From Sulfolobus sp. S-194 (lineage in GTDB: Archaea; Thermoproteota; Thermoprotei_A; Sulfolobales; Sulfolobaceae): 64,000 nucleotides of DNA. Of the stretch, positions 39,271 to 52,123 are shown one piece after another. The stretch lies in assembly GCF_012222305.1 (NCBI RefSeq), contig NZ_CP035730.1, positions 1,302,001-1,366,000 of the forward strand. Direction: 5' to 3'. Made by a program: the position numbers and the translations under genes. Within the stretch, counting starts at the first letter, position 1. Each line of letters opens with the position of its first letter. Below the pieces are notes generated by a model that worked only from the letters and a program-made list of their open reading frames with translations, had not been told where the DNA came from and made no database searches.

Positions 39271-40209
39271 ATGCATCTAAGAGGAGTGCTTTTCATACTC
39301 TTTATTGTTATTCTTTTGTTAAATTTAACTTCTCATGTAAGTTCCTACGAGATAAATCATTCACTCATGATAATTAACAAGAAAAATTTGGTGATCTCTG
39401 GGATTAGCGTGATTAACGGAAATATAACCATTATAAATTCCAGTAATATAATTATAAAAGATGATAATATTTACAACAGCTCTTATTTTGGAATATTTGT
39501 ATATGATTCAAAAAATGTGACTATTGAAAATAATCATATAGACCAGTCTTATTATGATGGTATTTCTATCAGAAAATCAGAAAATGTGACTATTGAAAAT
39601 AACATTATAGCTAATAATTCTAACGGTAACGGAATATCTGTATGGGATAATAGCAATTATATAATTATAGCTAGCAATATTCTATCAAATAACGGCTATG
39701 GAATTTTTATTCTCATGAGTTCTAATGTTACTATGTTAAATAACAGTATAATTAAGACCTATTACTATGCGATTTATCTTTATCAAGCTAACTTCATTAA
39801 AATAGTAAATAATACAATCTTGTTATCAGACATAGGATTAGAGGTTGATTATGGAAGTTTTATCCAATTCGAGTTTAATGTTATAAAAAATGATTTGGTA
39901 GGTGTTTATTTAGGGGATGGTATTGGAAGTCTTAATCTGATTGATAATATAATTCAAAACTCTCGATACTTCGGTGTACTTATTAAATATTATCCTAACG
40001 TGTTTAATTATAATAAAAATAAATTTATAAATAATACAGCAAATATTTTCTATGAATTTAATAATACATTACCAGAGCAAACTAACGGATTAGTACCTCC
40101 TATAACAATTACTAGCAAGTCAAACATTTCGTTCAATTATTCGTATCTTACTATCCTTTTATTGACTATACCAGTTATCTATATTTTACTAAGGAGAAGA
40201 AGAAAGTAG
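39271..40209 (+). CDS. Secreted parallel beta-helix protein with C-terminal anchor
   Basis: The 312-residue protein has a signal peptide followed by repeats of the NosD/pectate-lyase-like right-handed beta-helix type. The unit is about 22-24 residues, e.g. SKNVTIENNHIDQSYYDGI, then SENVTIENNIIANNS, SNVTMLNNSII, and so on. A transmembrane helix and the basic tail LLRRRRK end the protein, so it faces outward and is held in the membrane. Its 3' end overlaps hypC (convergent) by 21 bases. NosD relatives serve in metal-centre assembly, but here only the fold can be read. Confidence 0.78.
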   Translation: MHLRGVLFILFIVILLLNLTSHVSSYEINHSLMIINKKNLVISGISVINGNITIINSSNIIIKDDNIYNSSYFGIFVYDSKNVTIENNHIDQSYYDGISIRKSENVTIENNIIANNSNGNGISVWDNSNYIIIASNILSNNGYGIFILMSSNVTMLNNSIIKTYYYAIYLYQANFIKIVNNTILLSDIGLEVDYGSFIQFEFNVIKNDLVGVYLGDGIGSLNLIDNIIQNSRYFGVLIKYYPNVFNYNKNKFINNTANIFYEFNNTLPEQTNGLVPPITITSKSNISFNYSYLTILLLTIPVIYILLRRRRK

Positions 40210-40419
40210 TCTTCTCATTTCAATCTCATATTCTATCATTTCTTTAAATTCCTTTTCAGTAATCTTACTTACTATCATCCCGTAACTTACTACAACATAA
40301 TCTCCTTCTTTTACATCATCAGCATTATTTATTACTGGTTCTATTACACCATTACCATAATCCACAAAAGCAATCATTCCATCAATTTGAACAACTTTCG
40401 CAGGTAAACTTATACACAT
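40189..40419 (-). CDS. hypC: Hydrogenase assembly chaperone HypC (copy 1)
   Basis: HypC carries the Fe(CN)2CO group with HypD and binds the large subunit. The 76-residue protein starts MCISLPAKVVQIDGMIAFVDYGNG. Cys 2, which becomes N-terminal after Met removal, is the essential ligand. VKEGDYVVVSYGMIV is the family's second strand pair. It is separated by 43 bases from the divergent HupK-like gene, so the two share a bidirectional promoter. Confidence 0.9.
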   Translation of the reverse strand: MCISLPAKVVQIDGMIAFVDYGNGVIEPVINNADDVKEGDYVVVSYGMIVSKITEKEFKEMIEYEIEMRRLLSSSP

Positions 40420-40462
40420 AATATAATAATATTTTTTATACTTTTAAATCTTCATATATTTT
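40420..40462. promoter_or_regulatory. 43-bp divergent promoter between hypC and the HupK-like gene
   Basis: Both genes start within 43 bases of each other in opposite directions. The interval contains TATA-like elements for each strand: cttttaaatc (40441-40450) on the plus strand, and agtataaaaaa (40434-40444) on the minus strand. They overlap, and each lies about 20-25 bases from its start codon, so both messages are probably leaderless and may compete. Confidence 0.55.
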
Positions 40463-41626
40463 ATGAGTTTATATGATTTAGAGATAATTGACTTAGACGT
40501 TTACGTTAGTGAAGGAAAGGTAATTAAAGCCAGATGTTCTGGGAATAAAATAAGAGGTTTTGAAAAATCCTTTATTGGAAAAGACGCAAATACTTTCTAT
40601 GAAATAATTCCCAGAATCCTAGCTACTTGTAGCCAATCTCACGTTTACGTGTATATAAAGCCTCACATTAACACTAAGGTTACGGAATTACTTACGGCCT
40701 TAGAAATAGTAGATAGTCACTTAAAACATCCATATGCCTATTGGTTTCCACACTTAATTAAAAATGAAGAATACTCGTTCCCTTCAGGTACAAAATTTAG
40801 AAAAGTAAGCTTAATATCTAGACGAATAAAAGAGATAATGGAAAAAATTGGGGGTAAATGGCCACATACTGATTACTTAAGGAAAGAAAAGGAAGTTAAG
40901 TTCAATAAAGAGGAATTGAAAGATGTAATAAATTTTGTTGAAAGTGAAGTTTTAGGAATGAATATTGAGGATTTCTTGAATGTAAAAAGATTGGAGGAAC
41001 TTAGAGGTGATCTTAAGTTATTAGTTGAAAAGGGAATTGATACACTTAGTTGGGGCTTCGGATTAAGGGACTATTTAGTAGTAGGTTATCCATTTAATGG
41101 TAATTTTGATTTTAGTAAAATTGAAGATAAGGGTATTGAAGTAATGTATAATAATAAAAAAGTAGAAGTGGGACCTTTAGCTCAAGCATTAACTTTTGAT
41201 GAACTAGTAAAAACTTACTTTAATAAATATGGACCTTCACCATTACTTAGAGAAATTGCAAGGATTAAAATTTTAGCAAAACTATTAAATGATATTAAAG
41301 AAATCGACATTCATACTAGTGCATTTGTAGCTAATGGGGGAGAATTTGTATCATTTGCAGAATCTATTAGAGGTTCATTAATACATAATTATGAAATTGA
41401 AGGGGATAAAATTGTTAAGTATAAGATAATTCAACCAACAACTTTTATAGCTTCTCCAGGAGGAGCGTTAGAAAGTGCAGTATTAGGTTTACCTATAAGA
41501 AATCCTAAAGAGCCTATTGAGTTGTCATTAACAGTCTCATCATTAGATACTTGTTTTATAACTAGAGTTAATATATTTGAAAATGAAAAAATTATAACTA
41601 CAAAAAGAATTGGTGGTTTTTGCTAA
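40463..41626 (+). CDS. Large-subunit paralogue with degenerate active site (HupK/HoxV-like)
   Basis: The 387-residue protein is homologous to [NiFe] large subunits. [14 protein letters not shown] corresponds to the APRG region, and [19 protein letters not shown] to the P-T region. The first motif is [10 protein letters not shown] (Cys 56, His 60), with Leu in place of the first cysteine. The last is [10 protein letters not shown] (Cys 364), with Thr and Asn in place of the second cysteine and the cleavage-site histidine. So one cysteine per motif survives and no cleavable tail exists. This is the pattern of HupK/HoxV, scaffold proteins on which the Fe(CN)2CO unit is built. It neighbours hypC (divergent) and hypF (convergent, 4-base overlap). 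Confidence 0.75.
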
Positions 41627-43854
41627 AAGAAGGTAAGATAGTACGATTGCCCTAAGGCTATCCCTCCATCTCCAGCTGGAATCCTTCTTGGAGTTAGCAC
41701 TTCTACTCCTTCAGAATTATCTATAATCCCTTTAAGAATATACTCATTTACAGCCGCACCACCAGATACGAAAATTCTTTCTGGGTTTAGTTTAAGAGAA
41801 GCTTTAACTAAGCTCTCACCTAGCTTGTATTGGACAGTGATTGCCAAGTCATTTATAGGCTTATCCCTATTTTCTAAGAGCCATTTAAATATTACTGTAG
41901 TATCTATTTCCTCTCCAACAATCGGTATTTCAAGGCTATCTAAAATCTTTCCTCCTCTAGCAGAAGCCTCGAGTTTCATTGCAGGTTCTCCTTCATAAGT
42001 CCTATATTTACATATTCCTAAAAATGCTGATACAGCATCTAAAACTCTACCAGTACTTGATGTAAATAATGTTGATTTCTTACTAACTTTTTCAAGAATT
42101 TCTAATTCCCTATCACCTAAACTAACAATTCTCCTAATTTCATCCCAAGTCATAAAAGTTGATAAGAATAGTGCTAACATTCTTTCTGGTTTAAGAGCAT
42201 TTACATCACCACCTACATAAGGAACATATTTTAAATGATATTTTCTCTCATATCTTTCCCTATCAAATTTAATTATCTCACCTCCCCAACCATTTCCATC
42301 ATCACCATAACCTATGCCATCAATAGCAATTCCAACTCCTTCTCCATAACCATAATCAGCAGAAATACTTAATATGTGAGCATAATGATGTTGAATCTGT
42401 ACTAAATCTGCTGAAAATCTTTCAGCTAACTTATGAGCTAAGTAAGTACTCTGATAAGCTGGGTTTTTATCAGCCATAATTACTTTAGGCTTAATGTTAT
42501 ACCATGAAATTAAAAGAGAAAGGGCTTTATCAAGTTCATTTAAATTTTCTAGCTCATCAGTATCTCCGATATATTGAGTTAAGACTACTTTATCATCAAA
42601 GGCTATCGCACCAACATTTTGTAACTCAGCCCCAACTGCAACTATAGGCTCTTTAACTTTCCTTTTCAGCTTTATCCATGTTGGGGCATAGCCTCTACTT
42701 CTTCTTAGCAACATTGTTCTACCTGCAGATACACGAACAACACTATCATCTACTCTATTTACAATTTCTCTATTGTGATAAAGAACGTAATCCACAACGT
42801 CTTTAAGTTTCTTTTTTACACATTCCTCATTTGTACACATAGGAAAACCATGTTTATTCCCACTGGTCATAATAAGTACATTATTTTTAACATTGCTTAA
42901 CAACAAATAATGAAGAGGAGTATAATATAGGAAGAATCCTTCTCTATCTAATCCTGGTGAGATATGTTTAGACAACTGATATGGTTCTTTTTTCTTAAGA
43001 AGAACTATAGGTCTTTGAGGAGATGTTAATAAGCCTCTCTCTATAGACGATATATAAGTATATTTTTCAATTATATCTAGATTTAAGGCCATTACAGCAA
43101 AGGGCTGTTGAGGCCTATTTTTCCTTTCTCTTAATTTTAGCACTACATCATCATCAAAGGGATTTGCGGCAATATGGAAACCTCCGATCCCCTTAACAGC
43201 TACTATATAACCTTCGTTTATTATTTTCGCAGCAAGTTCTATGGGATCACCATTAACTTTTTCTCCATCGATAGTTTCAAGATATAAACGTGGACCATCC
43301 CTATTGCAACTAATTCCTTGAGCATCAAATCTTCTCTCATTATTAGGATCGTAATACTCGTGCTTGCAATCATCACATAATGGGAAATACTTCATTGAAG
43401 TGTTCTCTCTATCATATGGTAATTTATACATCATAGAAAATCTAGGACCACAATATGCACAGCTATTAAATGCGTACTTATACCTTCTAGGATTATTAGG
43501 ATCTAACACTTCTTTCATACATTCATCGCACACTGCAAAATCTGGAGGTATTTGACTAGGAGTTCTTATTTCATTTCCACTAGTTAGAATTTTAAAATTT
43601 ATAAATGATTCAAATTCACTTTCCTCTATCTTAATTTCCTCTATCTCTGCTACTGGTGGTAATTTTGAAAAAAGCAATCTCATAAATTCAGCTATTCCCT
43701 CTTTATCACCCTCTATACGTACTTCTACCTCACTTCCGCCCAAATTTCTCACGTAACCTTTAACATTAGCCTTAGTCGCAATTCTATAGATAAATGGTCT
43801 AAAACCCACTCCTTGAACAATTCCGCTTATAATAATTCTGTAACTATATTCCAT
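41623..43854 (-). CDS. hypF: Carbamoyltransferase HypF
   Basis: HypF makes the cyanide ligands of the active site from carbamoyl phosphate. In order the 743-residue protein has an acylphosphatase domain ([16 protein letters not shown] near the start); a zinc region with [20 protein letters not shown] and [11 protein letters not shown]; a YrdC-like domain ([13 protein letters not shown]); and a Kae1-like domain ([36 protein letters not shown]). The fourth ligand of the second zinc site is Asp (SCNRDGP) instead of Cys. It overlaps the HupK-like gene by 4 bases. Confidence 0.93.
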
Positions 43855-44191: not shown

Positions 44192-44698
44192 ATGGCAGAA
44201 AACTATTTTGAAGATGAAGATTATAAAGAAGGAATAAAGAAGCTTGCGGAAATTGTAATTTACCTTAATAGTAGTGGAATTCTAGATTCGATATTAGATT
44301 TCCTAAAATCCGATAAATTGATAAAAATAATTAAGTCACCTACGTTTAAGGCAGTGATAGAGCTCTTAGGTGATATACAGCAAATGATAGATTCTGGCGA
44401 GGTTAGTTCAGATGATTTTATAAATGGAATTATAGCAATTGCGAAACATCTTGATAAATTGGGTAAAATAGTAAGTACTTTAGATAAACACGGTGTTCTT
44501 GATGTTGTTACTAACGGATTATCAAAGGCTGCAGAGAAAATTATAAAGGAGAATAGCGAATCTAACATAGTCCAGCTTTTAGCATCGTTTGATGATCCAG
44601 ATGTAAAAATGACTTTAGCATACTTACAATATATGTTAAAAGAACTTGGAAAATCTACAAGACCTTTAATAGAAAAAGGTAACAATCAACATAAGTAA
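44192..44698 (+). CDS. DUF1641 protein in the hydrogenase island
   Basis: The 168-residue, all-helical, acidic protein has the DUF1641 pattern: SGILDSILDFLKSDKLIKII, LGDIQQMIDSGEVS, then NGLSKAAEKI, ending in FDDPDVKMTLAYLQYMLKEL. Such proteins occur next to hydrogenase and formate dehydrogenase genes in many bacteria and archaea, with unknown biochemical role. It is convergent with the HxlR-like regulator (13-base overlap of ends), so it sits between hypF and hydrogenase 2. It probably affects expression or assembly of one of them. Confidence 0.7.
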   Translation: MAENYFEDEDYKEGIKKLAEIVIYLNSSGILDSILDFLKSDKLIKIIKSPTFKAVIELLGDIQQMIDSGEVSSDDFINGIIAIAKHLDKLGKIVSTLDKHGVLDVVTNGLSKAAEKIIKENSESNIVQLLASFDDPDVKMTLAYLQYMLKELGKSTRPLIEKGNNQHK

Positions 44699-45064: not shown

Positions 45065-46579
45065 CTAAATAAGCTTTAACATGTGAACATTACATACCAT
45101 ACATGCATCATGACTCCTAACTATATGATGAACTTCAATAGGATTATTAACATCAGAAACTTCAGTACCTATTAATGCTAATGCCATATGACTCTTATTA
45201 CCTAAAGGATCTTCCGGGCTCATATTAATTTGTGTAGGAGTCACAATTTGGTAATTCAATATTTTCTCGTTCTTTACTACAACCCAATGTCCTAAAGCAC
45301 CCCTAGGTGCTTCAACTAAACCATAACCCATACCTTCCTTAACCTCTGAAGGCTTCTTGTATGTAGGTTTACCGAACTCAAAATTATTTAGTTCTTGAAG
45401 CATTAACTCGTTATAAATTAAAACTCTAACTAATCTAGCAACAACTCTAGAAAGAACACTAGGTCCTATCTTGTCTATAAGATCTAAAATTAGTGGATTA
45501 CCAGTCACACTTAACATCGCTAAAGCACCAGCTTCTGGAGCTATAAGTTTACCATCTAGTTTATATCTAAAGCACTTCGTTAATGAATATTTCTTTTTAT
45601 TCTTCTCATCTAGATTAGGATTCGTCTCACCCTCAAATGGGTGTAAGCCCGTTTGATCCCCCTTACTGTAAGTATAATAAGAAGAGTTTACGAACTCAAG
45701 AACATTACGCTGATCAAACTCTCTATACTCTTTCTCTTTTGCAAAATAAATTCCAGGTTTAAAGTACTTCTTACTTGGAGTCCCAACATATTCCTCAGTT
45801 GGTAAGTGACCATAACTTAACATTATTCCAGAACCATAACCTAATTTATGCCAATTGGCTTCTAATCCAAACTCCAGTATTTTAGCCAAATCTCCCTCTT
45901 TATAATCTTCAGCCCATTGCAGTAAATCATTATAGCTTTTAACGGTATCTAAGAATTGATTTATAGGACCTCCTAAAATTACCTTTTCTAGATAATTCTT
46001 CTTTAAATCTAATAGTATGGAAATAGCCCTTTGAATTTCATTTGGTAAAGGGTCAGCTGTTATACCACCGGGAATAATAGCTGAACCGTGAGGCCACTGG
46101 CCACCAAATATAGCATAAACCTCAGTATATTTTTTCGACCATTTAAAACATTCTTTATAAGACGAACCTTGAATAGGGGCCCATCTTCTAATAACTTCTT
46201 CAAAATTTGCATAATCATGGTATTTATTATTTAGAACATCAATCAAAAACATAAAATAAGTATGTCTAAGATCATTCTGACAAGTCTCTGCCATACTTAG
46301 TACATTTCTTAACCTTATTGCGTTAATTGGAACTTCAGCATTATAAATCATGTCAAGAGCTGAAGCTGATGCATATAAATGAGAAGCACCACAAATACCA
46401 CAAACTCTAGGAGTAATAACTAAAGCATCTAAAGGATTCTTACCTTTAAGAATTATTTCTATTCCTCTAAACAATCTTGAGATAATTTTAGCATCAATAA
46501 CTTTATTTCTCTCAAATTTTACTTCAACATCTAAATCTCCTTCAACTCTATTAAACGGAGAAATTATTTTGCTACTCAA
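45065..46579 (-). CDS. [NiFe] hydrogenase large subunit (hydrogenase 2)
   Basis: The 504-residue protein has the first site PRVCGICGASH (Cys 60, Cys 63, His 67) and the last HDACMVCNVH (Cys 493, Cys 496, His 499). The Ala at the usual Pro position (D-A-C) is a small departure. The tail after His 499 is only five residues (MLKLI), yet it should still need cleavage. VEAPRGALGHW is the arginine motif. With no Tat signal on its partner, the enzyme is cytoplasmic, of the group 2 uptake type found in aerobic archaea. It overlaps the small-subunit gene by 8 bases. Confidence 0.93.
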   Translation of the reverse strand: MSSKIISPFNRVEGDLDVEVKFERNKVIDAKIISRLFRGIEIILKGKNPLDALVITPRVCGICGASHLYASASALDMIYNAEVPINAIRLRNVLSMAETCQNDLRHTYFMFLIDVLNNKYHDYANFEEVIRRWAPIQGSSYKECFKWSKKYTEVYAIFGGQWPHGSAIIPGGITADPLPNEIQRAISILLDLKKNYLEKVILGGPINQFLDTVKSYNDLLQWAEDYKEGDLAKILEFGLEANWHKLGYGSGIMLSYGHLPTEEYVGTPSKKYFKPGIYFAKEKEYREFDQRNVLEFVNSSYYTYSKGDQTGLHPFEGETNPNLDEKNKKKYSLTKCFRYKLDGKLIAPEAGALAMLSVTGNPLILDLIDKIGPSVLSRVVARLVRVLIYNELMLQELNNFEFGKPTYKKPSEVKEGMGYGLVEAPRGALGHWVVVKNEKILNYQIVTPTQINMSPEDPLGNKSHMALALIGTEVSDVNNPIEVHHIVRSHDACMVCNVHMLKLI

Positions 46580-47552
46580 GCCAATTACCTCTATCTTCTT
46601 TTTTCTTTATAAGTGGCTTTACTAAAAATTCTGGTGCTGAAGCTCTAGCTATTGCTGAAAGTGTTGTATAAGCACCTCTGCTAACGCCAAGTGGTAATCT
46701 CTTCGGTATCCCACTTCTGTTTTTCTCTGTAACAAAGAAGTTAAATGTTGGGAAATCAAATTCAGTACATCCAAAACATGGTGTACCAACCCTAGTTTTG
46801 CTACTTTGCTTGTTCCATAAGATAACATTACAAGGACTCCTAGTATATGAACCTTTACAACCTAAATCAAAATATAAGCATCCTTCCCTATGACCAAATT
46901 CCTTAAGAGCCACCTTATAAGAGAAATATATGTTCCTAGGACAGCCAAATTGCGTTGTTGTATTATAGATAATTTTTAATCTCTGATATTCATCCAGATC
47001 TTCTTCTGTCAATTTATCATTAATAATCATGGAAAGAGTTGTAATGATCCATTCAGGGTGAGCTGGACAGCCAGGGATATTTATTACAGGTAAATTTTTT
47101 CTAGATCTAAAATCCTTACCAAGAAATCCTCCCTTTTCTTTTTTATGAAATTGTAGCCCGGTAGATTCTGTGGGATTTGGGTCTGAAGCTGGAACTCCTC
47201 CAAAACTAGCACAATCTCCCACAGCTATGACATAATTAGCAACTTTAGATATTTCATTAACCCAGTCTTTCATTGGTCTACCAGCAAACATATTAAATTT
47301 TCCAGAACCATTAGGACCCAAAACCACAGTACCCTCAAAGATGAATATATCTAGATTAATTTTCATGTTGACTATATTATTTAATAATTCTCTTACTTTG
47401 TCACCAGTCTCTAGGGATAAGGAGGGATGCCACAATAGTTTTATATCATAATAGCTGAAGAATTCTAGTACATCAGGACTCTCCGCGTTTAGGAATGAGA
47501 GAGTGTTGCCACCACAAGCACCGCCCTGAAGCCATAAAATTGTTTTCATCAT
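46572..47552 (-). CDS. [NiFe] hydrogenase small subunit (hydrogenase 2)
   Basis: The 326-residue protein lacks any signal peptide, so the enzyme is cytoplasmic. The first motif is LQGGACGGNTLSF (Cys 13, Asn 16): the usual second Cys is Asn. Then come VGDCASFGG and NIPGCPAHPEW for the proximal cluster, TTQFGCPRN (distal, with Gln rather than His in the HxxC position), EGCLYFDLGCKG, SPCN and GTPCFGC. The enzyme thus can carry all three clusters. It begins at a leaderless ATG with a TATA element about 26 bases upstream. Confidence 0.93.
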   Translation of the reverse strand: MMKTILWLQGGACGGNTLSFLNAESPDVLEFFSYYDIKLLWHPSLSLETGDKVRELLNNIVNMKINLDIFIFEGTVVLGPNGSGKFNMFAGRPMKDWVNEISKVANYVIAVGDCASFGGVPASDPNPTESTGLQFHKKEKGGFLGKDFRSRKNLPVINIPGCPAHPEWIITTLSMIINDKLTEEDLDEYQRLKIIYNTTTQFGCPRNIYFSYKVALKEFGHREGCLYFDLGCKGSYTRSPCNVILWNKQSSKTRVGTPCFGCTEFDFPTFNFFVTEKNRSGIPKRLPLGVSRGAYTTLSAIARASAPEFLVKPLIKKKEDRGNWLE

Positions 47553-47902: not shown

Positions 47903-48970
47903 ATGAGAGATAACATGAGTGATCCTAAAAGTGTAGTAACTTTGCTTCACGGAGCTGGAGGAGCTTATATGCACAATCTCATTAAAGAGTACTTTCTTCA
48001 ACTATATGACGGTTTTGGAGAAGTTGGGCTAGATGCTTTAGATGATGCGGCTGTTATAAATGGAGTTGTATTTACTACTGATTCCTATACTGTAAGACCT
48101 ATATTTTTCAAAGGAGGAGATATTGGAAGATTGGCAGTCAGTGGAACTGTAAATGACATTGCTATGATGGGGGGAGATCCAATAGCCTTAAGCCTAGCAA
48201 TAGTAATGGAAGAAGGTTTCCCAAAATCAGACTTAGCCAAAATAGTGGAAAGTATAAAGAAAACTGCTGAAGAAGCTGGTGTGCATATAGTTACTGGTGA
48301 TACGAAAGTTATGGAAAAAAATGCGTTAGATAAAATTGTTATAAATACATCTGGGATTGGTGTAGCATCGGAAGAACTAAAACATAACTTTAATGTGTTA
48401 AGAAAAAGTAGGACTGTTAAACATGAGTGGCTAGTCCCAATGAATATTAGAGATGGGGATAAGATAATAGTTTCTGGAACTATAGGAGATCATGCAATAG
48501 CGATTCTATCATCTAGGGAAGGCGTAGGTTTTGAGTCAAATATTCAATCTGATGTAGCACCACTAAATAAAATGATGAAAACTATTCTAGAAGTTGGCGG
48601 AGTAGCTGATGCGAAAGATCCTACTAGAGGTGGATTAGCAGATTTATTAAATGATTGGGCTGAAAAATCAGGTTTAGGTATTTATATTAGAGAAAGTGAG
48701 ATACCGGTAAAAGAAGAAGTTAGTAGTGCTATAGAATTCCTCGGATTAGATTTACTTGAATTAGGAAATGAGGGAAAAGCTGTCCTTGCTGTCTCGCCGG
48801 AAATGGCTAGAGATATTTTAGAAACTCTCCGTAGTACACCATGGGGTAAAGATGCAAATATTATAGGAGAAGTTAGGAAGGATACTGAGGGAGTAATATT
48901 AGAAACCGTAATTGGAGGTAAAAGATTAGTAACTAGACCTACTGGCGATCCAGTACCCAGAATTTGTTAA
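47903..48970 (+). CDS. hypE: Hydrogenase maturation protein HypE
   Basis: HypE dehydrates the carbamoyl group on its C-terminal cysteine to a thiocyanate. The 355-residue protein has the PurM-like fold. LHGAGGAYMHNL is the ATP-binding start, followed by DDAAVINGVVFTTDSYTVRP, GDIGRLAVSGTVNDIAMMGG and CTR-like DPTRGGLADLLN. It ends DPVPRIC, the PRIC tail that carries the thiocarboxamide. An ATG four codons inside (47915) is possible. The operon continues with the zinc-ribbon, hypC and hypD genes. Confidence 0.93.
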   Translation: MRDNMSDPKSVVTLLHGAGGAYMHNLIKEYFLQLYDGFGEVGLDALDDAAVINGVVFTTDSYTVRPIFFKGGDIGRLAVSGTVNDIAMMGGDPIALSLAIVMEEGFPKSDLAKIVESIKKTAEEAGVHIVTGDTKVMEKNALDKIVINTSGIGVASEELKHNFNVLRKSRTVKHEWLVPMNIRDGDKIIVSGTIGDHAIAILSSREGVGFESNIQSDVAPLNKMMKTILEVGGVADAKDPTRGGLADLLNDWAEKSGLGIYIRESEIPVKEEVSSAIEFLGLDLLELGNEGKAVLAVSPEMARDILETLRSTPWGKDANIIGEVRKDTEGVILETVIGGKRLVTRPTGDPVPRIC

Positions 48971-48981
48971 AGGTGATTTTA

Positions 48982-49236
48982 ATGGCTAAATTAGTTTGTA
49001 TGATATGTGAACATGAAGAAAAAGTACCAGAACACTGTGGAGTAGAAATGGAGTATGTTTTAAAAGGGACCTTTAGAAAGGTAGAATACCTTAAATGTAA
49101 AGTATGTAGTAAGGATTTTGTAACTCCAAAACATTGCGGGATTCCTATGCTTTATGTTGATGAGGATTATTTACCAGTTAATAAGTTAAGTAAAACAGAA
49201 ATTGAGGAAATGAGAAAACTTTATTCTGGTGAGTAA
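48982..49236 (+). CDS. Small cysteine/histidine-rich protein in the hyp operon
   Basis: The start is the ATG at 48982 with aaaggtgat just before it; a TTG upstream (48964) inside hypE is less likely. The 84-residue protein has two matching halves: CMICEHEEKVPEHCGVEMEY and CKVCSKDFVTPKHCGIPMLY. Each has C-x-x-C and HCG at nearly the same spacing, so it is an internal duplication of a metal-binding unit. It resembles rubredoxin- or desulforedoxin-like knuckles. It may bind zinc or iron and act in redox or metal handling during maturation. I recognise no named family. It starts 12 bases after hypE. Confidence 0.7.
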   Translation: MAKLVCMICEHEEKVPEHCGVEMEYVLKGTFRKVEYLKCKVCSKDFVTPKHCGIPMLYVDEDYLPVNKLSKTEIEEMRKLYSGE

Positions 49237-49238
49237 GA

Positions 49239-49517
49239 ATGTGCGTAGCTTATCCAGGTAAAATAATAGAAATTAACGGGGAGTTTGCTAAAGTAGATTT
49301 TGGGGCAGGTACAATTAGAGATAATATACTAATAAGTTTAGTTAATGCTAAAGTTGGTGATTATGTTTTAGTCCATGCTGGTTACGCTATACAAGTAGTA
49401 GATGAAGAGGAGGCTAAAAAAACTATTGAAATGTGGGAAGAAATGACAAAAGAATTAGATGAGGAACAGAAAAAGAAAGATCTTTACGAAGCTATAGGGA
49501 GTGGTATAAATGAGTGA
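49239..49517 (+). CDS. hypC: Hydrogenase assembly chaperone HypC (copy 2)
   Basis: The 92-residue protein starts MCVAYPGKIIEINGEFAKVDF with the required Cys 2. It has VGDYVLVHAGYAIQ as the second strand pair and a longer acidic/basic helix at the end (EEQKKKDLYEAI). It is tightly placed between the zinc-ribbon gene and hypD, with 2 bases to the former and an 8-base overlap with the latter, as in the standard hypCD pair. It is distinct from copy 1, so the two may serve different large subunits. Confidence 0.92.
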   Translation: MCVAYPGKIIEINGEFAKVDFGAGTIRDNILISLVNAKVGDYVLVHAGYAIQVVDEEEAKKTIEMWEEMTKELDEEQKKKDLYEAIGSGINE

Positions 49518-50640
49518 TGAGCTTCCAAAAATATTAAAATATTATAGAAATCCTACATTAGCAAAGAGTATTACAGAAAAGATTGATGAGTTGGCAAGAA
49601 AGATAGAAGAGAATATTGCAATAATGCATGTCTGTGGTTCCCATGAATGGACAATAACACATTATGGTATAAGAGCATTGTTACCAGAAAATGTCCAGGT
49701 GAGAGCCGGACCAGGATGCCCAGTATGCATAACTCCAGCTAAAGATATTGACGATGCTGTAAAGTTAGCCTTAGACGGTGTAGTAGTTATGACATATGGT
49801 GATATGAGTAGATCAAAAGGAACTAAAATGAGTCTACAAGATGCCAAAGCATTGGGTGCAGATGTGAGAATTATTTATGGAGTCCAAGATGCTGTTCAAA
49901 TGGCTAGAAAGGAACCAAATAAAGAGTTCGTATTTTTCGCTGTAGGAATGGATACTACAGCACCAGCAACGGCTTATGAAATACTTTCTAGTGTCCCGCC
50001 AAACTTAAGTTTTCTAGTTTCTTATAGATACACACCATCAATACAAGGCTCTGTTATGGAGTCAAACGTACTAGGAATAGATGCATTTATCTCTGCTGGT
50101 CATTCAGCCACTATAACTGGCATGAAACCATATTACGAGTACTTTTTAAGGACTAAAAAACCTGTAGTATTTTCTGGTTTTGAACCACTAGACATTTTAC
50201 TTTCAGTATACATGTTACTAAGACAAATATACGAGAATAAACCTAAATTAGAAAATGAGTATACGAGGGCTGTAACTTGGGAAGGAAATGTTAAAGCTCA
50301 AAATGCAATGGAAAAAGTATTTGATCTTGAAGATGGATATGTACGAGGAGTTGCTGTTTTCCCTAAGGCAGGATTTAGGCTTAAGGATGAATTTAAACAT
50401 GTAGATACTAGGGAAAGATATGGATTAAAGAAAGGTATATCCACCGAGGATGAGTATGTAACTGGAGCCAGATGCGGAGAGGTAGTGATGGGATTAATTG
50501 ACCCACCAGAATGCCCATTATATATGAAAGTTTGTAAACCAGAAGATCCTAAAGGAGCACCGATGGTATCTCAAGAAGGAACTTGTTGGATATGGGCCCA
50601 TCATAAAATCACTAATTTAGTACCTAAATGTAAGAGGTGA
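49510..50640 (+). CDS. hypD: Hydrogenase maturation protein HypD
   Basis: HypD with HypC assembles Fe(CN)2CO; it carries a [4Fe-4S] cluster. The 376-residue protein has the family landmarks MHVCGSHEWTI, RAGPGCPVCITP with the redox CxxC, FFAVGMDTTAPATA and SAGHSATITGM. The cluster region includes GARCGEVVMG, PPECPLY, KVCKPEDP and SQEGTCWIW. It has the normal length. It is followed by the class II aldolase gene 13 bases later. Confidence 0.95.
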   Translation: MSDELPKILKYYRNPTLAKSITEKIDELARKIEENIAIMHVCGSHEWTITHYGIRALLPENVQVRAGPGCPVCITPAKDIDDAVKLALDGVVVMTYGDMSRSKGTKMSLQDAKALGADVRIIYGVQDAVQMARKEPNKEFVFFAVGMDTTAPATAYEILSSVPPNLSFLVSYRYTPSIQGSVMESNVLGIDAFISAGHSATITGMKPYYEYFLRTKKPVVFSGFEPLDILLSVYMLLRQIYENKPKLENEYTRAVTWEGNVKAQNAMEKVFDLEDGYVRGVAVFPKAGFRLKDEFKHVDTRERYGLKKGISTEDEYVTGARCGEVVMGLIDPPECPLYMKVCKPEDPKGAPMVSQEGTCWIWAHHKITNLVPKCKR

Positions 50641-51678: not shown

Positions 51679-51915
51679 ATGCAAGCTATTATGAGATGCA
51701 TAGAAGAGATTGCAACTTATAGATATAATTTAGATGACTCTTCACAGGATTATAAGAGGATCCTACTAGATACTATAAAGAACGACAAAGAACTTTACCC
51801 TCTTTATTCACAGATTTTAAATATAATATTCTACTATTTATTAGGAGAAGAAGTTGAAATAAACAATATAAAGAAAAAAGTAGAGGAAATAATTAATCAG
51901 ATAAAAGAGATTTAA
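51679..51915 (+). CDS. Small helical protein, unknown function
   Basis: The 78-residue, all-helical, soluble protein has its start at the ATG 51679, 34 bases after DUF59. The upstream frame is open back to 51607 without any start, so the ATG is chosen. It contains no motif. Its 3' end overlaps the Cys-less HypC-like gene on the other strand by 23 bases. It closes the hypE-hypC-hypD operon. Confidence 0.45.
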   Translation: MQAIMRCIEEIATYRYNLDDSSQDYKRILLDTIKNDKELYPLYSQILNIIFYYLLGEEVEINNIKKKVEEIINQIKEI

Positions 51916-52123
51916 GTTTATTCTTTAAATCTTCCTCAACTTCTTCAGCGTTTAAAACTTTAATAGCGTAACCAGCATGGACTAAAACATAATCACCAAC
52001 TTTAGCATTAACTAAAGAAATTTTAACACTCCTTATAATTCCATTAAAATCAACCCTAGCCTCTTCACCTTGAATTTCTATGATTTTTCCAACATGTGCA
52101 ATATCATAGGGGTCATATTCCAT
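51893..52123 (-). CDS. HypC-like protein lacking the essential cysteine
   Basis: The 76-residue protein has the HypC fold region nearly identical to copy 2: GKIIEIQGEEARVDF, then VKISLVNAKVGDYVLVHAGYAI. Its N-terminus, however, is MEYDPYDIAHV, which has no Cys 2 and adds five residues. The protein has no cysteine at all. It lies 2 bases behind the maturation protease of hydrogenase 3. So it cannot bind iron in the usual way and may be a chaperone specific to the large subunit of hydrogenase 3. Confidence 0.85.
   Translation of the reverse strand: MEYDPYDIAHVGKIIEIQGEEARVDFNGIIRSVKISLVNAKVGDYVLVHAGYAIKVLNAEEVEEDLKNKLKSLLSD

Follow-up and report, generated by a model that had tools for sequence, protein, structure and literature searches.

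HysK, a degenerate [NiFe]-hydrogenase large-subunit paralogue of Sulfolobaceae, as a candidate HoxV-like carrier of the Fe(CN)2CO unit

Analysis of the window, i.e. the entire 64,000-nucleotide stretch of Sulfolobus sp. S-194 DNA considered here, revealed a gene that encodes a paralogue of the large subunit of [NiFe]-hydrogenases; it was given the working name hysK (protein, HysK) in this analysis. From its lost ligands, HysK is predicted to be non-catalytic. Judged from its sequence and setting, it is on balance likely to hold or carry the Fe(CN)2CO unit, together with the HypC-family paralogue HypC2, during the maturation of aerobic hydrogenases (the group 2e enzyme Hys and/or SUL2).

A dead large-subunit scaffold has so far been described in bacteria only, as HupK/HoxV, and the one found here may have evolved separately. 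If the assignment is true, such a scaffold would be a general and possibly repeated solution to NiFe-cofactor assembly in aerobes, and HysK would be a likely requirement for the production of group 2e/SUL2 hydrogenases, the proposed atmospheric H2 oxidisers in Sulfolobales, in other hosts. HysK also offers a heat-stable protein in which the thiols that bind Fe(CN)2CO, two or three in number, could be identified.

Active-site motifs of HysK

A PF00374 match (E 5.9e-14; score 52 bits, cut-off 25.8) and alignability with large subunits across almost the full length identify the protein as a large-subunit paralogue. Alignment with HysL, the large subunit of Hys, paired R51-ILATC56-SQSH60 with RVCGICGASH and D362-TC364-FITRVN370 with DACMVCNVH. 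In the L1 motif, the first Cys is replaced by Leu53 and the second (C56) is retained together with H60; in the L2 motif, the first Cys (C364) is retained, the second is replaced by Thr367 and the His is lost. The alignments agree residue by residue with the preliminary description of this DNA, according to which a large-subunit paralogue keeps one Cys per motif. Catalytic group 2e enzymes have four Cys ligands, arranged as two CxxC pairs; HysK does not, L53 and T367 being invariant among its orthologues, and the RxEG motif with its glutamate was found to be absent upon alignment with large subunits.

Residues expected to surround the iron unit have fared differently. R303 corresponds to the arginine of the PRG motif, which in hydrogenases lies close to the Fe cyanides, and P325-T326 corresponds to their cyanide-contact motif P-[ST]. 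As to the C-terminus, the cleavage-site His is missing, as had been noted in the claim that the protease site is gone, but that claim overlooked a tail of 17 residues ending in the invariant Cys387. C56, C364 and C387 are the only three cysteines that are invariant in the eight intact orthologues. The coordinates of these motifs and of the surrounding genes are given in Table 1.

Table 1. Features of the hysK region, in window coordinates
Feature	Position	Strand	Evidence or remark
SUL2-like large subunit, 753 aa	32669..34930	-	alternative or second client; same nine genomes
hypC2 (HypC-family paralogue)	40189..40419	-	PF01455, E 6.8e-16; divergent from hysK
hypC2/hysK divergent intergenic region, 43 bp	40420..40462	.	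near-identical in four genomes
hysK	40463..41626	+	ATG start, 387 aa; PF00374 match, orthologues, model fold
degenerate L1 motif R51-x-L-[AS]-T-C56-x-Q-S-H60	40613..40642	+	orthologue alignment; HoxV RLFALCGEAH likewise
invariant R303-G304	41369..41374	+	orthologue alignments
invariant P325-T326	41435..41440	+	orthologue alignments
degenerate L2 motif D362-[TS]-C364-F-[IV]-T367	41546..41563	+	orthologue alignments
Cys387 codon ('R-[IV]-GGFC' end)	41621..41623	+	invariant; not in 11 HupK/HoxV
hypF	41623..43854	-	convergent with hysK, 4-bp overlap
hysM-like DUF1641 protein	44192..44698	+	weak PF07849 match; position relative to hysLS
hysL, group 2e-type large subunit, all four cysteines	45065..46579	-	likely client; co-occurrence 9/9
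hysS, small subunit of Hys	46572..47552	-	PF14720, E 2.5e-21
hypE - rubredoxin-like - hypC1 - hypD	47903..50640	+	general Fe(CN)2CO synthesis genes

Orthologues and selection

Orthologues of hysK were found across four Sulfolobaceae genera, eight of them intact (the window copy counted) and one broken, with Metallosphaera yellowstonensis MK1 among the carriers. L53, T55, C56, Q58, S59, H60, D362, C364, F365 and T367 are invariant in the eight intact proteins, residue 370 varies (N, K or E), and 104 of the 395 alignment columns are invariant. The four pairs with estimable dS gave dN/dS values of 0.09-0.17 (0.087-0.173), and hysK is under purifying selection. Since orthology extends down to 47-59% identity at these ratios, chance is excluded.

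The absence of catalytic ligands and of whole segments could suggest that hysK is a hydrogenase 2 copy decaying in the manner of a pseudogene. This is extremely improbable in view of the dN/dS values, the number of columns held invariant over four genera and an identity between HysK and HysL of about 28%. The same ratios and the same divergence rule out a recent hydrogenase 2 duplicate with dN/dS near 1, the case that had been named as refuting the scaffold reading.

Several further matches were discarded. One from Burkholderiales (L006) is a chance peptide similarity in an unrelated protein. Ten wider archaeal matches (E 1e-13 to 1e-8) were inspected; nine of them retain both CxxC pairs and the tenth retains the L2 pair, so that none is an orthologue.

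Gene neighbourhood

The HypC2 proteins form a HypC clade of their own (100/100), and hypC2 neighbours hysK, in divergent orientation, in each of the nine genomes. The promoter said to be common to hysK and a hypC gene accords with this arrangement, the two divergent genes of the window being 43 bp apart. The gap measures 43-121 bp in seven genomes; in the other two it widens to about 1.46 kb and contains a radical-SAM-like reading frame (L051 6932-8390, L053 6844-8313), which is broken in one of these genomes.

On the other side of hysK, the overlap with hypF had been read as fitting a maturation role. The convergent 4-bp overlap exists, but hypF adjoins hysK in four of the nine genomes only; the adjacency is not conserved, carries little weight and was dropped as evidence of role. 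DUF1641 genes, of which the HysM-like gene is one (for the name, see PMC11018855), were found by locus comparison also beside group 2a hydrogenase genes.

In the four genomes tested, no small subunits (PF14720) were found beyond those of known enzymes; with no such protein to spare, HysK is without a small subunit of its own. The small subunit of SUL1 is described as truncated (PMC11018855).

Two minor observations concern neighbouring genes. A third HypC-family paralogue, HypC3 (51893-52123, minus strand), is without Cys2 at its N-terminus, a residue regarded as essential for the binding of Fe; it starts with MEYDPYDIAHVGKIIE, its relatives start with MAHVGKIIE, and these proteins form one 100/100 clade from seven genomes. 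Furthermore, the C-terminal extension of HysL after the final His is shrinking, from 13 residues in three Metallosphaera-type genomes to five in the window (45065-45085) and zero in G050 and G090 (L048, L050), where the gene stops at ...VH* and the enzymes would need no maturation protease.

Co-occurrence with aerobic hydrogenases

Among the 31 family genomes, hysK, hysL and the SUL2 large-subunit gene are present in the identical nine and in none of the other 22 (Fisher p 5e-8, inflated by linkage and kinship); the pattern represents one linked locus in related genomes and not independent observations. Two genomes, G114 and G175, have hysL remnants and neither hysK nor hypC2, and hysK is missing from G163, G114 and G059, the genomes with group 1g/SUL1-type hydrogenases only. 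In the genome with the broken orthologue, G131, an IS element with a 329-aa transposase frame splits hysK, and a one-base frameshift breaks hysL (L049 5652-8263, 11615-13124). The hysK gene is broken or absent where aerobic hydrogenase systems have decayed.

G102 has SUL2 and group 2e hydrogenases only, plus HysK; the data suggest that this genome is M. sedula, as which we take it. For M. sedula, SUL2 and group 2e hydrogenases only are reported (PMC11018855), and the label SUL2, and not group 1g, follows from matching its hydrogenase content to that source.

Linkage leaves Hys and SUL2 inseparable as clients by co-occurrence, exactly the nine hysK genomes carrying SUL2, and in A. brierleyi the principal aerobic hydrogenase is SUL2 (PMC11018855). 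That SUL2 is served by HysK instead of, or besides, Hys is nevertheless somewhat doubtful, given that in every hysK genome the distance from hysK is 5.5-20 kb to the SUL2 gene but 0.7-4.3 kb to hysL, and that the SUL2 large-subunit frame is open in G131 beside the broken hysK and hysL, although hypD was not found in the G131 genome either. The client of HysK among the aerobic hydrogenases is probably Hys.

Comparison with HupK and HoxV

HoxV of Cupriavidus necator (L056; RLFALCGEAH...AYDPCVPYTVE) keeps the same two cysteines and has lost the same two positions as HysK, in line with the HupK/HoxV cysteine pattern proposed in the preliminary description. The L1 Gly, replaced by Ala in this HoxV, is A/S in HysK. 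Across the 11 HupK/HoxV proteins compared, L-C, RGxLxH, PTxWNF and DPC are invariant; HysK has the Cys, RGxLxH and D-x-C of this set and is without WNF, the stretch P-T-x-W-N-F reading P-T-T-[FI]-[IN]-A. A counterpart of C387 was found in none of the 11 proteins. With regard to missing parts, HysL segments ~121-132, 265-276 and 301-324 are absent from both HysK and HupK, and the region around HysL 145-168 (FGGQWPH) is largely present in HysK and mostly lost in HupK.

HoxV (C. necator) and HupK (Rhizobium leguminosarum) are, like HysK, large-subunit paralogues of ~340-400 aa with a HypC-family gene in their cluster, and the hydrogenases of their hosts are likewise from aerobic organisms. Three traits of HupK are seen in HysK: it is a degenerate large-subunit homologue by PF00374 and alignments, it retains the second L1 and the first L2 Cys with loss of the first L1 Cys, and a HypC/HupF-family gene is linked to it, hypC2 lying beside hysK in nine of nine genomes. 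The operon position hybE/hoxT - hupK - hypA is not that of hysK. Unlike HoxV/HupK, HysK is archaeal, goes with group 2e/SUL2 and not with group 1d, has no hoxO/Q/R/T context, has lost W-N-F, carries the invariant C387 and forms a separate clade in trees.

HoxV is a nickel-free carrier of Fe(CN)2CO that encounters chaperones of the HypC type as well as the large subunit in its apo form, and a 2025 review lists the role of HupK/HoxV among the questions still to be answered (PMC12134894); hupF and hupK accompany the hydrogenases of aerobic bacteria (PMC3534401). In the openly accessible HupK/HoxV literature, no archaeal representative is described, the proteins being from Pseudomonadota only. That HysK would work like bacterial HoxV/HupK, on behalf of archaeal aerobic hydrogenases, is well supported by indirect evidence.

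The surroundings of a HupK-like gene on a Rhodovastum plasmid (L067 2941-3987) are those of a formate-hydrogenlyase-type cluster, with hycH, hycI and fdhD nearby, and not those of a group 1d hup operon; the L2 motif of this HupK-like protein retains both cysteines (DPCVAC).

Evolutionary origin

Maximum-likelihood trees, calculated with or without the motif columns, revealed HysK and HupK as separate clades, each at 100/100, with HysK placed among group 2/group 1 enzymes. AU tests, in which HupK, HysL, group 1 and HysL+2a were considered as partners of HysK, did not reject a union with HupK (p 0.33, 0.28), with HysL (p 0.13, 0.24) or with group 1 (p 0.18). Phylogeny, which had been suggested as a check, gives a divided answer: the clades are distinct, but union with neither HupK nor HysL is rejected. 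The profile check pointed away from HupK, with the HysK profile lying nearer to group 2 enzymes (hhalign scores of 255 for HysL at E 3.6e-35, 243 for group 2a, 202 for 2b, 159 for group 1 and 135 for HupK). This ranking is not decisive because HupK evolves fast.

An AF2 model of HysK reached a mean pLDDT of 62.6 and a pTM of 0.68, with pLDDT below 50 at residues 48-69 and 362-364; a second model from a thinner alignment was worse (mean pLDDT 54.7). Both alignments were shallow, comprising window proteins and related loci only, and cysteine geometry could not be read from the models. The best structural match was the Huc large subunit 7utd_A (Z 21.4, rmsd 3.6, 349 residues), obtained with a model that is unreliable at the motifs. 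This group 2a protein of Mycobacterium, close to HysK also by profile, is catalytic and has four Cys ligands, unlike HysK. HysL, the best profile match, shares with HysK the fold and the neighbouring genes; it differs in its four Cys, RVEG, C-terminal His and small subunit, and large parts of its 265-348 region are gone from HysK.

Orthology of HysK to HupK/HoxV, arising before or with the hydrogenase split or by transfer and implying that HysK works exactly like HoxV, would account for the identical set of kept and lost Cys, the A/S after the first L1 position in both and the shared missing segments, and a single clade is compatible with the AU tests. We regard it as unlikely, since the trees keep the two apart, HupK gives the lowest profile score, WNF is lost and C387 gained, the FGGQWPH region is kept and a hoxV-like operon context is absent. 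Convergent origin of HysK from a group 2 enzyme is favoured over descent from HupK. A fuller version, in which a group 2 large subunit independently turned into an archaeal HoxV-like Fe(CN)2CO carrier with a private HypC and with a new C387 as substitute for a lost ligand or as releasing thiol, is put forward tentatively.

The HupK/HoxV-like role that had been proposed is supported indirectly by the HoxV ligand pattern, the dedicated HypC2, the lack of a small subunit and the co-occurrence with aerobic hydrogenases, but membership of HupK/HoxV is not established. This partial failure does not lower the claim that HysK works like HupK.

Proposed role in Fe(CN)2CO transfer

A route from HypC2 via HysK to the apo-HysL and/or SUL2 large subunit is proposed because HysK keeps the residues expected to hold the iron unit and is without a complete nickel site, and because HoxV provides a precedent. 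Cyanides would be made by HypE/HypF and Fe(CN)2CO would be built by HypC-HypD, after which HypC2 might deliver the unit to HysK through its N-terminal Cys. There, C56 and C364, perhaps also C387 of the tail, would hold Fe(CN)2CO in a pocket that retains R303 and P325-T326. The direction of transfer would be from HysK to the apo large subunit, and we infer a link of the process to O2. The HypC/HypD scaffold complex has the same proposed cargo but is unrelated to large subunits and, with the 4Fe-4S cluster of HypD, builds the unit, whereas HysK would merely receive or carry it.

Two of four ligands remaining and a GGFC tail end as a possible thiol handle are also what might be expected of a protein-binding accessory subunit or chaperone for pre-HysL, HysS or HypC2, in which the cysteines are structural or serve thiol chemistry. 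Such a function appears quite unlikely, as the conserved residues (C56, H60, R303, P325-T326, C364) surround the Fe(CN)2CO pocket and the dedicated HypC gene adjoining hysK points to the iron unit. For HysK as Fe(CN)2CO carrier, C387 could be a third ligand or the releasing thiol. The C-terminal residue of HypE is likewise Cys (...VPRIC).
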